Source: an uncultured Desulfovibrionaceae bacterium (GTDB lineage: Bacteria > Desulfobacterota > Desulfovibrionia > Desulfovibrionales > Desulfovibrionaceae). Taken from it: a stretch of 64,000 bases of DNA. Shown here one piece after another: positions 53,010 through 57,860 of this stretch. The number at the start of each line of letters is the position of its first letter. The stretch's first letter is position 1. The stretch spans positions 1 through 64,000 of the forward strand of contig CATJOY010000041.1 of the NCBI GenBank assembly GCA_949741925.1, read 5' to 3'. A program made the translations under genes and the position numbers. A model generated the notes under the pieces. That model saw only the letters and a program-made list of their open reading frames with translations. It was not told the DNA's origin and did no database searches.

Positions 53010-54170
53010 TCAAATCTCCCTGAGCAGGGTGTAGAGAGCCGCCTTATCCTCAAAGCCGACGCCGGGAATATCCGGCAACCCCACATAGCCGTTCTCCACG
53101 GCGATGCTGTCAGCAAAACCGCCAAAGGGTTGAAAAACATCGGGATAGGATTCGTTCCCGCCAAGATGAAGGCCCGCGGCGATGTTTAACGACATCTGAT
53201 GACCGCCGTGGGGTACGATACGGCGAGAGGACCAGCCGAGTTCCTCCATCACCTTAAGGGTGCGCAGGTATTCAACTAAACCGTAAGAAAGGGCGCAGTC
53301 GAACTGGAGATAATCCCGATCCCGACGCATGCCGCCGTAACGCAGCAGGTTGCGAGCATCCTGGTGGGAAAAAAGGTTTTCACCCGTGGCCATGGGGTGC
53401 TCATACACCTCGCCGAGTTTCGCCTGGATTTCATAATCAAGAGGATCCCCGGCCTCTTCATACCAGAAAAGATTATAAGGACGGAGGGCTTCCGCATAGG
53501 CCAGAGCTGTTTTCAGGTCAAAGCGGCCGTTGGCGTCCACAGCCAGACGGCTGCCGTCGCCCACGACTTTGAGCACGGCTTCGATGCGCGCGATATCCTC
53601 TTCAAGGGAGGCCGCGCCGATCTTCATCTTGACCACGCTGTAGCCCCTATCCAGGTAGCTTTGCATTTCAGCCTGGAGCTTGGAATGATCCTTGCCGGGA
53701 TAGTAGTAACCGCCGGCGGCATAGACAAAAACCCTGTCGTCGGCCTGGCCGCCTGCGTAGCGGTCCGCCAGGAGTCGGTACAAGGGCTTGCCTTCGATCT
53801 TGGCCACGGCGTCCCAAACGGCCATGTCAATGGTGCCCACGGCCACGGAACGCTCACCGTGGCCGCCGGGTTTCTCGTTGCGCATCAAAGTTGCCCAGAT
53901 GGCAAAGGGATCCAGGTTATCATGCTCTTCATCAATGAGCATTTTGGGATCGGCCTCCCGCAGGCGAGGGAAAAAACGCTCGCGCATCAGTGAACCCTGA
54001 CCGTAGCGGCCATTGGAGTTAAAACCGTACCCGACCACGGGCTTGCCATCGCGCACTACATCCGTAACCACAGCCACGGTCGAACAGGTCATTTTGGAAA
54101 AGTCGATGTAGGCGTTGGCGATAGGTGAAGCAATGGAGACGGTTTTTTCGCGGATATCCACAATACGCAT
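53010..54170 (-). CDS. D(-)-tartrate dehydratase-like enolase-superfamily enzyme
   Basis: 386 residues from the ATG at 54170 (GGAGG 9 nt upstream). Family markers of the MR/MLE enolase superfamily: KMKIGAASLEEDI (K-x-K catalytic Lys), RLAVDANGRF (first metal Asp), LFWYEEAGDPLDY (second metal Glu), MATGENLFSHQDARNLLRYG (third Glu), and VPHGGHQMSLNIAAGLHLGG (catalytic His). The N-terminal SPIANAYIDFSKMT and the last motifs match, as I remember it, D-tartrate dehydratase of Bradyrhizobium, which converts D-tartrate to oxaloacetate. All expected catalytic residues are present. No tartrate transporter or regulator is adjacent, so the physiological substrate is an inference. Confidence 0.85.
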   Translation of the reverse strand: MRIVDIREKTVSIASPIANAYIDFSKMTCSTVAVVTDVVRDGKPVVGYGFNSNGRYGQGSLMRERFFPRLREADPKMLIDEEHDNLDPFAIWATLMRNEKPGGHGERSVAVGTIDMAVWDAVAKIEGKPLYRLLADRYAGGQADDRVFVYAAGGYYYPGKDHSKLQAEMQSYLDRGYSVVKMKIGAASLEEDIARIEAVLKVVGDGSRLAVDANGRFDLKTALAYAEALRPYNLFWYEEAGDPLDYEIQAKLGEVYEHPMATGENLFSHQDARNLLRYGGMRRDRDYLQFDCALSYGLVEYLRTLKVMEELGWSSRRIVPHGGHQMSLNIAAGLHLGGNESYPDVFQPFGGFADSIAVENGYVGLPDIPGVGFEDKAALYTLLREI

Positions 54171-54447
54171 CAGCACAATCCTCCGTTCTTCGGCAGGGTT
54201 ATAGTATTTTCCGTAGTCTGAAGCCGGAATGCCGAAAACCTTCAGACCAGCCCGGCCGGAAGCCGCTGCCCTATCGCACAAAACCCGAGCCGTTGCTCAA
54301 GAACTTCCGGCGCTCAAAACCCGCCTGTAACCATCCGTGGCAAGGATTTGCAAGCAAATTCTTGCAGAACAGATATGCGATATGCTGTGTCCCCCCAAAA
54401 ACCAGTCTCCCGGAAAGCCTCAGGCCGGCGCGCCTGAGGCCTCGTTG

Positions 54448-55572
54448 CTACTCCGCTATTTTCTCCCACCAGTGGGGAAAGCTTTGGGAAGGATTCCCCG
54501 GAAATACCGGTTCCCCTATCCGAGGAAACAGCACCCGGAAGGCCGTATCCCCGGCGGCCCGGACAAAGCGGATATACGGATCATCCCAGGCATGGCCGGC
54601 CATAGCAAACTTCCCGTTGTGCCCGGGCATGACGGCTGCAGCCTTTAGATCCGCGGCGGCCTGGGCGCTCTCCTCAGGCGCCATATGAATATACGGCCAG
54701 CGCGGGTCATACTGGCCATCTTCAAGAAGGGCAAGGTCAAAGCCGCCCCAACGTTTCCCGGCTTCGGCAAAATGTGGCCCATAGCCCGTATCGCCGCTGA
54801 TGAAAATCTTACGCTCCGGTGTTATCAAGGCAAACCCGACCCACAGGGTTTTGTTGCGGGCGAGGAGACGCCCTGAAAAGTGGCGGGCAGGAAGCACATG
54901 GACGCGCAGCCCATCGCGGAGCCTTAGCTCATCGTACCAATCCCCCTCGTGAATGATCGTGGCCGGGAAGCCCCAATATCGAAGATGCGATCCCACCCCA
55001 AGGCCACAAACAACCTCTCCGATGCGGGGCAAAAGAGCCCTCAGGGTGGGATAATCAAGGTGGTCCCAATGGTCATGGGTAATGAGCAGATAGTCTATAT
55101 CCGGCATATCCTCGGGGGCGTAGACGTTCGTTCCGGCAAAGGCACGGTTGAACAGGGAAAACGGCGCGGCATAGTCGCTGAAGACCGGGTCAACAAGGAT
55201 GCGCTTGCCCCCGAGAAGCATAAAATAGGAGGAATGCCCAAGCCAGACCACAACATCTTCCTCAGGGGGCAGGGCCTTGAGATCGGTTTTGACCGCGGGC
55301 ACAGCGCATTGCGGGGCGGAGCGCCCGTCACGGCTCGCATTATTGCCGAGCAACACAGAAAAAAAGCTGTGCCCCTCAGCGAACTGCGGTGTTGCAATCA
55401 AATTACGGAATTCACCACCGCCATACTGTGGCGATTGCTCCAGGCGGGCCAGGTCCGCCCCGTGCGGATGCCGGCCAAACTTTGGGGAAGAAAAAGCATA
55501 TCCCACCATCAGCGCAGCCCCTATCGTAAAAACAAAAAACCAACTGCATTTTGCCTTCCCTATGCGGACCAT
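54448..55572 (-). CDS. membrane-anchored or exported metallo-beta-lactamase-fold hydrolase (UlaG/NAPE-PLD-like)
   Basis: 374 residues from the ATG at 55572, chosen because AAGGAG lies 5 nt upstream; a GTG two codons earlier overlaps that site. A hydrophobic segment at about 10-25 (FFVFTIGAALMVGYAF) should be a signal or anchor. MBL motif LLITHDHWDHLDYPTL (HxHxDH), then HVLPARHFSG, FISGDTGYGPHF (metal Asp) and VMPGHNGKFAMAG. VVWLGHSSYFMLLGGKRILV is the usual UlaG-type opening. It probably hydrolyses a phosphodiester or lipid-derived ester in the periplasm, but no substrate is evident. Upstream (minus) is the DUF4405 gene after a 252-bp gap, so linkage is not certain. Confidence 0.87.
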   Translation of the reverse strand: MVRIGKAKCSWFFVFTIGAALMVGYAFSSPKFGRHPHGADLARLEQSPQYGGGEFRNLIATPQFAEGHSFFSVLLGNNASRDGRSAPQCAVPAVKTDLKALPPEEDVVVWLGHSSYFMLLGGKRILVDPVFSDYAAPFSLFNRAFAGTNVYAPEDMPDIDYLLITHDHWDHLDYPTLRALLPRIGEVVCGLGVGSHLRYWGFPATIIHEGDWYDELRLRDGLRVHVLPARHFSGRLLARNKTLWVGFALITPERKIFISGDTGYGPHFAEAGKRWGGFDLALLEDGQYDPRWPYIHMAPEESAQAAADLKAAAVMPGHNGKFAMAGHAWDDPYIRFVRAAGDTAFRVLFPRIGEPVFPGNPSQSFPHWWEKIAE

Positions 55573-55824
55573 CGGCACTCCTTGTTATTGCCGATCACGC
55601 TGCCGGACGGCATCCGCGCAGTTCCAACGCGCAATGAAAAAGACCAGCTCATGCCCTTAGTTCTCCGCCAGCGTAAAGAATTCTCGATTATCATCGGCAT
55701 TCTTAAAAGTTTCCACACCGAAATCAACGCGCCCGATCTTTGGCAGGCGGCTGACGCTTTTCTTTCTACTCATAGTGAACAGAAGACGACAACCGAGCCA
55801 ATAGAAGATGCCGCCAACCGTATT

Positions 55825-56469
55825 TTATCGCCGCTGAGCCCGTTCCAGATAATCCAACAGGACACGAGCCAACAGGCAGAAGGCCAGGGTAACGCTTACA
55901 AAACGCGCCAGGAAAAACGCCGGGGTCTCCGGAAAAATTTTCGGCCACCCCAGCAACACCATGTCGCTCCACAGCCTGCTTTCCACAAAAGCAACGCCGC
56001 CAAAGGCCAGCAGGACCACCACGACCGCAGGCCAAACACGCCCCAAAACCCGCTGCATCCGGCTCCACACCCGCTGACCGTGCAAGCCCAAGTGAAAGGA
56101 TGCCAACACGAAACACCAAGCCGTAGCCGCGGTGTGCACACCGCGCCCCCACCAGGTCATGGGAAAGGGCACAAAGGAAAACACCTCGCCCGCCATAGCC
56201 AGCGAACTGGCAATGAGCGCTGCGCTGCCCAGCATAAGCCCGGCATCCGTGGCCGTAAGCAACACGCGCCTGGCATTCCAGCGGCCTCGGCCCAAAGCGC
56301 GGTACCAGCCCCGGTTCAGGGCATGGTGACCGAGCAAAAGGACCAGAAACGCCGCGCCGCAGACCCCGTGCAGCAGCAACCCCAGGGTGAACGGATACCC
56401 CATAAGGGCGAGCATAAGCCCGTAGAGGGCCACATCCACAGCAATTTTTACAGTGCGGCGGGGATTCAT
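55825..56469 (-). CDS. DUF4405-type six-helix membrane protein, predicted diheme b-type cytochrome
   Basis: 214 residues from the ATG at 56469, overlapping the SUMF1-flavodoxin stop by 4 bp (ATGA). Six hydrophobic helices: about 9-27, 30-50, 67-93, 109-130, 142-160 and 180-205. Histidines are paired: His34 and His48 on helix 2, and His112 and His126 on helix 4, each exactly 13 residues apart, the spacing that ligates two hemes b in cytochromes of the bc and related families. His49 and His130 are extra. I take it to be a quinol-linked membrane cytochrome, partner of the exported flavodoxin domain made just before it. No quinone-site motif is recognisable. Family name from overall likeness. Confidence 0.8.
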   Translation of the reverse strand: MNPRRTVKIAVDVALYGLMLALMGYPFTLGLLLHGVCGAAFLVLLLGHHALNRGWYRALGRGRWNARRVLLTATDAGLMLGSAALIASSLAMAGEVFSFVPFPMTWWGRGVHTAATAWCFVLASFHLGLHGQRVWSRMQRVLGRVWPAVVVVLLAFGGVAFVESRLWSDMVLLGWPKIFPETPAFFLARFVSVTLAFCLLARVLLDYLERAQRR

Positions 56470-57860
56470 CGCACCAGCCCGCTCGCGCGCAACCACTCCT
56501 CTATACCCTCCGCAAGACCGCGCCCGCCTGCATAGTGGAATTCAAACCCCACCCCGATGTACGCTCCGGGGACGCTTTTAGCGAGGTCTGAAACGCTGTC
56601 GCCCCACACAGTGCCGCCGTGGCTGCTGAAAGGAAGGATGATCTTGCCCCGGAAGTCGTGCATTTCCAAAAAGGAAAGAACCGGCATGGGCATGGTGGCC
56701 CACCAAGTAGGATAACCCAACAAAATAACGTCATACTCGGCCATGGTATCCACTCGCGCCGTCAGCGGAGGACGGACGCCCTGGTTCAGATCCGCCTGGG
56801 AGACCTCGTAGATGCTGCCTCGGTAAGGATTCCGCATGGTGATCTCGAAGCGATCGGCGCGCAAACGCTCGCTTATGATGTCGGCGGCGCGACGGGTATT
56901 GCCCGAATAGGAATAGAAGGCCACCAACACCCGGGGCTGCTCCGGCAGGGAGGGACGCCAAGGAGCCGCGGTCTCTACCGCCTCGTCACGAGGAGCGGCG
57001 TTACGGCAGATGCGAAACCCCAAATTCGGATCTGCGTCGGCGGGATTGGTGGCGGAGCGGTAAGCGCTGCGCAGATGCTTGCCAAAATCGTTATACCCGC
57101 CTCCTCGGTTGACACGCAGAGTGCCTGAAACCGGACCTGCGGGGTCGCTCGTCTGGTCCGGGGCGTAGGGGCCGTAGTAATCAAACACCCATTCGGAAAC
57201 GTTGCCATGGGTATGGTGCAGGCCAAAGGCATTGGCAGGCAAGGCATCCACCGGCATGGTTTCACCCCGGTTGTGGCTGGGCCTCACAGTGGGATCACGC
57301 CGGGTCATATAGTTTTCTTCGATCAAGTACGGGTAGGTGGCTTCAAAATTGACGCTATCGCTGTGCACCTGGTTCCCCACGTTAAAAACGGTGTCGCTTC
57401 CCGCACGGGCGGCGTACTCCCATTCCGCTTCGGTCAGCAGACGGTATCCGTTAGCCCTGCGGTTCCAGCGCACGGCCTCCCCATCGATGTCATAGACCGG
57501 TTCCAGGCCTCGATGGTTGCTGAGAGCATTGCAGTAACGCACGGCGTCAAGCCAGGTCACGTTCTCCACGGGCAGGCGGGCCCCCTTGTTTGCGCTGGGA
57601 TTTTCTCCCATTATGGCTTCATAGTCAGCCTGGGCAACCTCGCAGGAATCCACATACAAAGGGCTGATAGTTACCTGATGCCGGGTTTCATCATTGCCGC
57701 GCTGGCGCTCCGTTGCCGGGCTTCCCATAAAAAAGCTGCCGCCGGGCAGGAGAATAAAGCCGTCTTCAGGAGAAGCGGCTTCCGCACCCCGGGCCGTACC
57801 GGTCGCCATGAACAAACAGAACAAGAACATGGCTGCCGCGCTTTTGAAACAAACGCGCAT
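56466..57860 (-). CDS. exported SUMF1 (formylglycine-generating-enzyme-like) and flavodoxin fusion protein
   Basis: 464 residues from the ATG at 57860 (GGAGG 7 nt upstream; the frame is open to 57935 but without an RBS). Signal peptide at about 1-26 (FKSAAAMFLFCLFMATGTAR, then GAEA), so the whole protein is exported. SUMF1 domain at ~33-285: FILLPGGSFFMGSP, VENVTWLDAVRYCNAL, YRLLTEAEWEYAARAGSD, HTHGNVSEWVFDYYG, RVNRGGGYND, NLGFRICR. The two copper-binding Cys of true formylglycine-generating enzymes are absent (RGGGYND at that place), so it is not an FGE. Flavodoxin domain at ~305-464: FMN P-loop VAFYSYSGNTRRAAD, VILLGYPTWWATMPMPVLSF, FSSHGGTVWGDS. A flavodoxin outside the cytoplasm is uncommon. 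Confidence 0.9.
   Translation of the reverse strand: MRVCFKSAAAMFLFCLFMATGTARGAEAASPEDGFILLPGGSFFMGSPATERQRGNDETRHQVTISPLYVDSCEVAQADYEAIMGENPSANKGARLPVENVTWLDAVRYCNALSNHRGLEPVYDIDGEAVRWNRRANGYRLLTEAEWEYAARAGSDTVFNVGNQVHSDSVNFEATYPYLIEENYMTRRDPTVRPSHNRGETMPVDALPANAFGLHHTHGNVSEWVFDYYGPYAPDQTSDPAGPVSGTLRVNRGGGYNDFGKHLRSAYRSATNPADADPNLGFRICRNAAPRDEAVETAAPWRPSLPEQPRVLVAFYSYSGNTRRAADIISERLRADRFEITMRNPYRGSIYEVSQADLNQGVRPPLTARVDTMAEYDVILLGYPTWWATMPMPVLSFLEMHDFRGKIILPFSSHGGTVWGDSVSDLAKSVPGAYIGVGFEFHYAGGRGLAEGIEEWLRASGLVR

Follow-up and report, generated by a model that had tools for sequence, protein, structure and literature searches.

A SUMF1-flavodoxin fusion adjoined by a DUF4405-like membrane cytochrome b as a putative extracytoplasmic electron-transfer unit of gut anaerobes

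Results

Two overlapping genes on the minus strand of the window (the whole stretch of 64,000 nucleotides analyzed here) encode a SUMF1-flavodoxin fusion protein with a predicted export signal and a DUF4405-like membrane cytochrome b, a unit that probably carries electrons across the inner membrane to a target outside the cytoplasm (Table 1). Its relatives form one widely distributed clade, in which the cytochrome gene with its heme-type histidines is a near-constant neighbor of the fusion, and in which sequence motifs of sulfatase activation and of covalent flavin attachment are missing.

Table 1 Features of the two-gene unit in the window
Feature	Position	Strand	Basis
SUMF1-flavodoxin fusion gene, 464 aa	56466..57860	minus	ATG 57860, TGA 56468-56466; Pfam, model, fold search
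Sec-type signal peptide, predicted, residues 1-28	57777..57860	minus	Hydrophobicity and motif scan; cleavage site placed by eye between 25 and 28
SUMF1 (FGE-sulfatase) domain, residues 33-290	56991..57764	minus	Pfam, alignment, fold match
Linker, residues 291-307, weakly constrained	56940..56990	minus	dN/dS 0.57-0.66
Flavodoxin_4 domain, residues 308-462	56475..56939	minus	Pfam, fold match
FMN phosphate loop YSYSGNT, residues 316-322	56895..56915	minus	Sequence
DUF4405-like membrane cytochrome b, 214 aa from ATG 56469	55825..56469	minus	Profile, alignment, model

The fusion gene had been delimited correctly in an initial annotation made from the sequence alone, to which its orientation is added here, the plus-strand frame across the same interval being interrupted by stops upon translation. 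That both domains reside in one protein was borne out by Pfam, by an AlphaFold2 model and by fold searches. Pfam matches FGE-sulfatase at residues 33-285 (E 2e-40, over the cut-off) and Flavodoxin_4 (PF12682) at residues 310-435 (E 9.7e-22, 77.6 bits vs. a cut-off of 24), the latter being matched by all 30 fusion members at E <= 0.001. Structure prediction, proposed earlier as a check, recovered both folds in a model with pLDDT 78 and pTM 0.80, with poor loops at residues 160-197 and 254-266. Residues 28-290 match SUMF1 folds (2y3c, Z 26.3; PvdO 5hha, Z 21.8; human FGE, Z ~20.6), and residues 305-463 match Flavodoxin_4 structures (4ici, Z 21.7; 3klb, Z 20.6, solved with FMN). A match of the heme-bound flavodoxin FldH (8g64, Z 15.6, 15% identity) was judged to reflect the common fold. 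Both domains are under purifying selection, with dN/dS values of 0.06-0.16 where dS was measurable, and separated by a poorly constrained linker of about 17-18 residues. Together with 29 other loci carrying the fusion, this selection rules out the sequencing error joining two genes that had been considered at the outset. Repeat and promoter scans around the fusion gene revealed nothing outstanding, and a tRNA scan found none.

These 29 further loci, retrieved by a pattern scan of GTDB genomes with 50-77% identity, establish the same two-domain order in other anaerobes, where the initial annotation had suggested looking for it. Carriers belong to Desulfovibrionaceae, Sutterellaceae (Duodenibacillus), Succinivibrionaceae, Lachnospiraceae, Acidaminococcus, Brachyspira, Treponema, Fibrobacter, and Bifidobacterium, covering six phyla and mostly gut anaerobes. 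Most loci stem from metagenome bins; long contigs of named strains with the fusion come from Acidaminococcus provencensis, three Brachyspira, and Bifidobacterium oedipodis. Within the window's own family the SUMF1-flavodoxin unit is patchy: 10 of 199 genomes contain a strong match, only six of these cover both domains, and two of the six (G186, G203) encode them as separate genes. Separate, neighboring SUMF1 and flavodoxin genes occur in some members of the same family (loci L065-L069). In a tree of the joined domains the fusions cluster as a single group (100/100), and the split operons fall outside it; as this tree is rooted at midpoint and contains flagged long branches, the order of split and fused states is a matter of inference. 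The fusion tree conflicts with species relationships, placing Brachyspira apart from Treponema and Bifidobacterium with Succinivibrionaceae, which points to horizontal transfer. Spread of one fusion over six phyla, including the cultured Brachyspira, Bifidobacterium, and Acidaminococcus, suggests a common selective pressure in the gut. Tandem fusion copies exist at four loci (L033, L037, L039, L034), the second copies of Duodenibacillus bearing clear Tat-type signals, and an Anaerobiospirillum fusion (L052:2089-3521) is split into two frames inside the flavodoxin domain.

Export of the fusion, predicted before, is upheld by inspection of its N-terminus, MRVCFKSAAAMFLFCLFMATGTARGAEAASPEDG, which comprises an n-region (MRVCFK), a 17-residue hydrophobic core (mean Kyte-Doolittle 2.0) and a cleavage region (TARGAEA). 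A motif scan of this N-terminus detected neither a Tat RR motif nor a lipobox. Nearly all fusion members possess an N-terminal signal or anchor; the short frame at L032 lacks one. The Tat motif is missing in 25 of 30 aligned fusions, and the five passing the scan are all from Duodenibacillus, among them all three tandem second copies. The window's genome encodes TatC. At the five split loci L065-L069, the signal is of the Sec type on the SUMF1 gene and of the Tat type on the flavodoxin gene (SRRRFL or NRRNFV; 5/5), and RR signals also precede the flavodoxins of more distant pairs from Microvirga and a Klebsiella plasmid. Folded protein with FMN in place can be exported through Tat but not through Sec; the fusion therefore appears to have changed its cofactor supply. 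With Tat serving the split relatives but not most of the fusions, export of FMN with the protein versus loading in the periplasm becomes a real question. Sec export of an FMN protein demands FMN outside the cytoplasm, and no supplier was identified, which counts against the mechanism that we favor below.

The phosphate loop described as intact in the initial annotation is present, and the FMN-site motifs GNT, GYPTWW, and FSS(H/N/Y)G are kept in all intact main-copy fusions, changes being confined to divergent tandem copies. Judged from these motifs, the flavodoxin domain would be occupied by FMN. In flavodoxins that ApbE flavinylates, b1 and a1 are separated by an insertion bearing a Ser/Thr flavinylation motif (PMC11334425). 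None of the 35 sequences contains such a motif, and their P-loop is uninterrupted, without a b1-a1 insertion. Moreover, ApbE was not found in the window's genome (98% complete), in genome G059 or in one Fibrobacter genome. Covalent flavinylation was therefore rejected on the motif scan and the absence of ApbE from the window's genome, and FMN, if bound, should be held non-covalently. ApbE is present in 9 of the 11 other fusion genomes searched, an observation that counts against the mechanism proposed below.

The SUMF1 domain reported initially is present, yet it is not that of a sulfatase-activating enzyme. Its Pfam name and E value, and the fold shared with human FGE, could speak for a genuine formylglycine-generating enzyme drawing electrons from the flavodoxin; however, no equivalents of the FGE copper ligands Cys336 and Cys341 occur in any of the 35 aligned sequences, and with both cysteines missing the domain is no sulfatase activator. 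The segment matching the copper site reads RGGxYxDFxKxLRxAxRS in all 35. A client sulfatase was likewise not found in the window's genome, which encodes a single SUMF1 domain and in which PF00884 is represented solely by a phosphoglycerol-transferase-like membrane protein. Barring a cysteine-free FGE chemistry, we consequently rejected FGE function, to which we assign a vanishingly small probability. A loop, YPYxxEENY, with D258 and K261 marks this family and sets it apart from PvdO, TvpA and other cysteine-less proteins of the SUMF1/FGE fold. The SUMF1 loops that would shape a pocket are weak in the AlphaFold2 model, which counts against the mechanism proposed below. A target of a diversity-generating retroelement was considered as well, since the variable protein TvpA is the top fold match and SUMF1 occurs in phages, but here a flavodoxin follows the SUMF1 domain.

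The closest folds also include PvdO, a SUMF1-fold protein that takes part in an oxidation in the periplasm, and the NCBIfam name is dihydropyoverdine dehydrogenase. Both are compatible with electron flow in the opposite sense, in which a periplasmic substrate bound by SUMF1 would be oxidized and electrons passed via FMN and the cytochrome to quinone, cytochromes b being reversible in principle. Flavodoxins are usually low-potential proteins, however, and the unit has no constant neighbor that would provide a substrate, leaving this direction improbable.

The adjoining cytochrome gene overlaps the fusion gene by four bases (ATGA) in the window. A profile of its relatives placed a DUF4405-like gene next to the fusion in 28 of the 29 testable loci, i.e. 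those with enough flank (L032 was left out of the count as its contig ends), the sole locus without one being Treponema L049. The gene lies downstream of the fusion in most loci and upstream in four Fibrobacter loci, with a partial match in L041. All 21 aligned partners match PF14358 (DUF4405) at E <= 0.01, the best at 1.3e-10; the window's cytochrome itself reaches 18.4 bits, below the Pfam cut-off of 26.7, which counts against the assignment. H43, H57, H121, H135, and H139 (numbered from GTG 56496) are invariant in the aligned partners, and H43/H57 and H121/H135 are each 14 residues apart on two modeled helices, the long helices being predicted at pLDDT 90. In cytochrome b, two stacked b hemes are classically held by histidine pairs spaced 14 residues apart on two helices. 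With four histidines kept at this spacing, the partner cytochromes would be expected to hold two b hemes. A PDB fold search of the cytochrome returned non-specific helical bundles, in which ion channels (Z 9-10) scored above E. coli hydrogenase cytochrome b (Z 8.8), and was discounted as evidence. DUF4405 genes are known to cluster with those of extracytosolic Flavodoxin_4 proteins, and binding of heme b has been demonstrated for one DUF4405 protein (Huang et al. 2024, PMC11334425). Both the conservation of this neighbor and the heme binding of another DUF4405 protein (PMC11334425) lend support to the earlier suggestion that the next gene supplies electrons to the flavodoxin. Exported Flavodoxin_4 proteins being already known and common in such clusters, export alone is no surprise.

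In relatives, the unit sits among genes for an exported cupin, CMD (AhpD-like), an alpha/beta hydrolase, further flavodoxins, and aldo-keto reductases (AKR), with regulators nearby (response regulator and kinase, MerR, LysR or TetR genes). Another contig of the window's genome (L072) encodes an exported flavodoxin, a cupin, a CMD protein, and two hydrolases; its exported CMD gene (L072:10767-11567) reads as two adjacent frames, perhaps through sequencing error or a frameshift. The gene set suggests a role in detoxifying or repairing reactive carbonyls, quinones or oxidants outside the cytoplasm, an idea that is only a lead because no member of the set is constant beside the fusion. A gene set comprising AKR, CMD, cupin, MerR, and LysR fits electrophile stress. 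It would suit a flavodoxin domain acting itself as an FMN enzyme of the WrbA/azoreductase kind that reduces periplasmic quinones or electrophiles, with SUMF1 as scaffold and the cytochrome re-reducing FMN, a reading in line with a weak resemblance to models of FMN_red and NAD(P)H:quinone oxidoreductase. Nevertheless, the best matches are to Flavodoxin_4, the periplasm offers no NAD(P)H, and SUMF1 is constrained as strongly as the flavodoxin, which argues against a mere scaffold; we regard such an enzyme as unlikely.

Several neighborhoods were recorded in their own right. A Klebsiella pneumoniae conjugative plasmid (L024, NZ_CP141562.1, 40362-53747), from a strain whose name lists NDM5 and OXA48, carries genes for a regulator, a kinase, a flavodoxin, DUF4405, an exported cupin and an exported CMD protein, as well as a Tat-signal flavodoxin, a SUMF1 protein, a hydrolase, and two aldo-keto reductases. 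Separate Tat-signal Flavodoxin_4 genes at L028:3970-4530 and L029:4921-5481 immediately precede the fusion and stand behind a TetR-type regulator. In the window, genes for a metallo-beta-lactamase-fold protein with an N-terminal hydrophobic segment (54448-55578, minus) and an enolase-superfamily (MR_MLE) protein (53010-54281, minus) follow downstream on the same strand; neither was seen beside the fusion at the other loci.

Discussion

We propose that the fusion and the DUF4405-like gene would work as one electron-transfer unit. The membrane protein would carry two b hemes across the inner membrane, take electrons from the quinol pool and pass them to FMN held non-covalently in the flavodoxin domain, which would be placed outside the cytoplasm by the Sec signal, with an N-terminal membrane anchor serving instead in Gram-positive members and those of Brachyspira. 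SUMF1 would then be the client- or substrate-binding part where the flavin electrons are used, making the unit a periplasmic reductase in the manner of MsrPQ. We hold this chain, from quinol via di-heme b and periplasmic FMN to a client at SUMF1, with moderate confidence and ahead of the alternatives above; the anatomy of the unit is observed, and FMN and heme occupancy, electron direction, SUMF1 role, and substrate are inferred. More tentatively, and with rather doubtful odds, the family may represent an undescribed class of periplasmic reductases with SUMF1 as working site, in which a cytochrome-b-fed flavodoxin loaded with non-covalent FMN after Sec export has replaced an ancestral Tat-exported one.

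Extracytosolic flavodoxins have been proposed to be flavinylated so that the flavin is not lost (Huang et al., PMC11334425). The fusion family would be a widespread counter-case, as its FMN should sit non-covalently outside the cytoplasm, and a class of SUMF1-bearing, Sec-exported and then FMN-loaded reductases, if true, contradicts the need for covalent flavin in such proteins. Fusions and their Tat-exported split relatives form a natural pair for the question of how FMN reaches an exported protein. No earlier description of a SUMF1-flavodoxin fusion was found in the literature searched; SUMF1 and formylglycine go unmentioned in the main text of Huang et al. (PMC11334425).

Each part of the unit has known counterparts. 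PvdO, TvpA, and other cysteine-less proteins of the SUMF1/FGE fold share the fold of fusion residues 28-290, but no flavodoxin is fused in their solved structures. The stand-alone Flavodoxin_4 proteins 3KLB, 4ICI, and 4J8P have fold, P-loop, WW loop, and GG loop in common with the fusion, yet are single-domain proteins with ~29% identity to its flavodoxin. The proposed unit resembles the periplasmic methionine sulfoxide reductase system MsrPQ, where a redox protein of the periplasm receives its electrons from a heme protein in the membrane; MsrP, however, is a molybdoenzyme, whereas the fusion combines FMN with SUMF1. The likeness of MsrQ to DUF4405 is limited to how the transmembrane heme core is arranged (PMC11334425). 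A further counterpart is the ApbE system of Huang et al. 2024 (PMC11334425), where, as here, an exported Flavodoxin_4 and a DUF4405-type membrane cytochrome are encoded in one cluster and transmembrane electron transfer is presumed. Unlike that system, the fusion has no flavinylation motif or P-loop insertion, resides in a genome without ApbE and bears SUMF1 in front of the flavodoxin. The pairing of DUF4405 with extracytosolic Flavodoxin_4 is already known, and the fusion unit is a variation on it.
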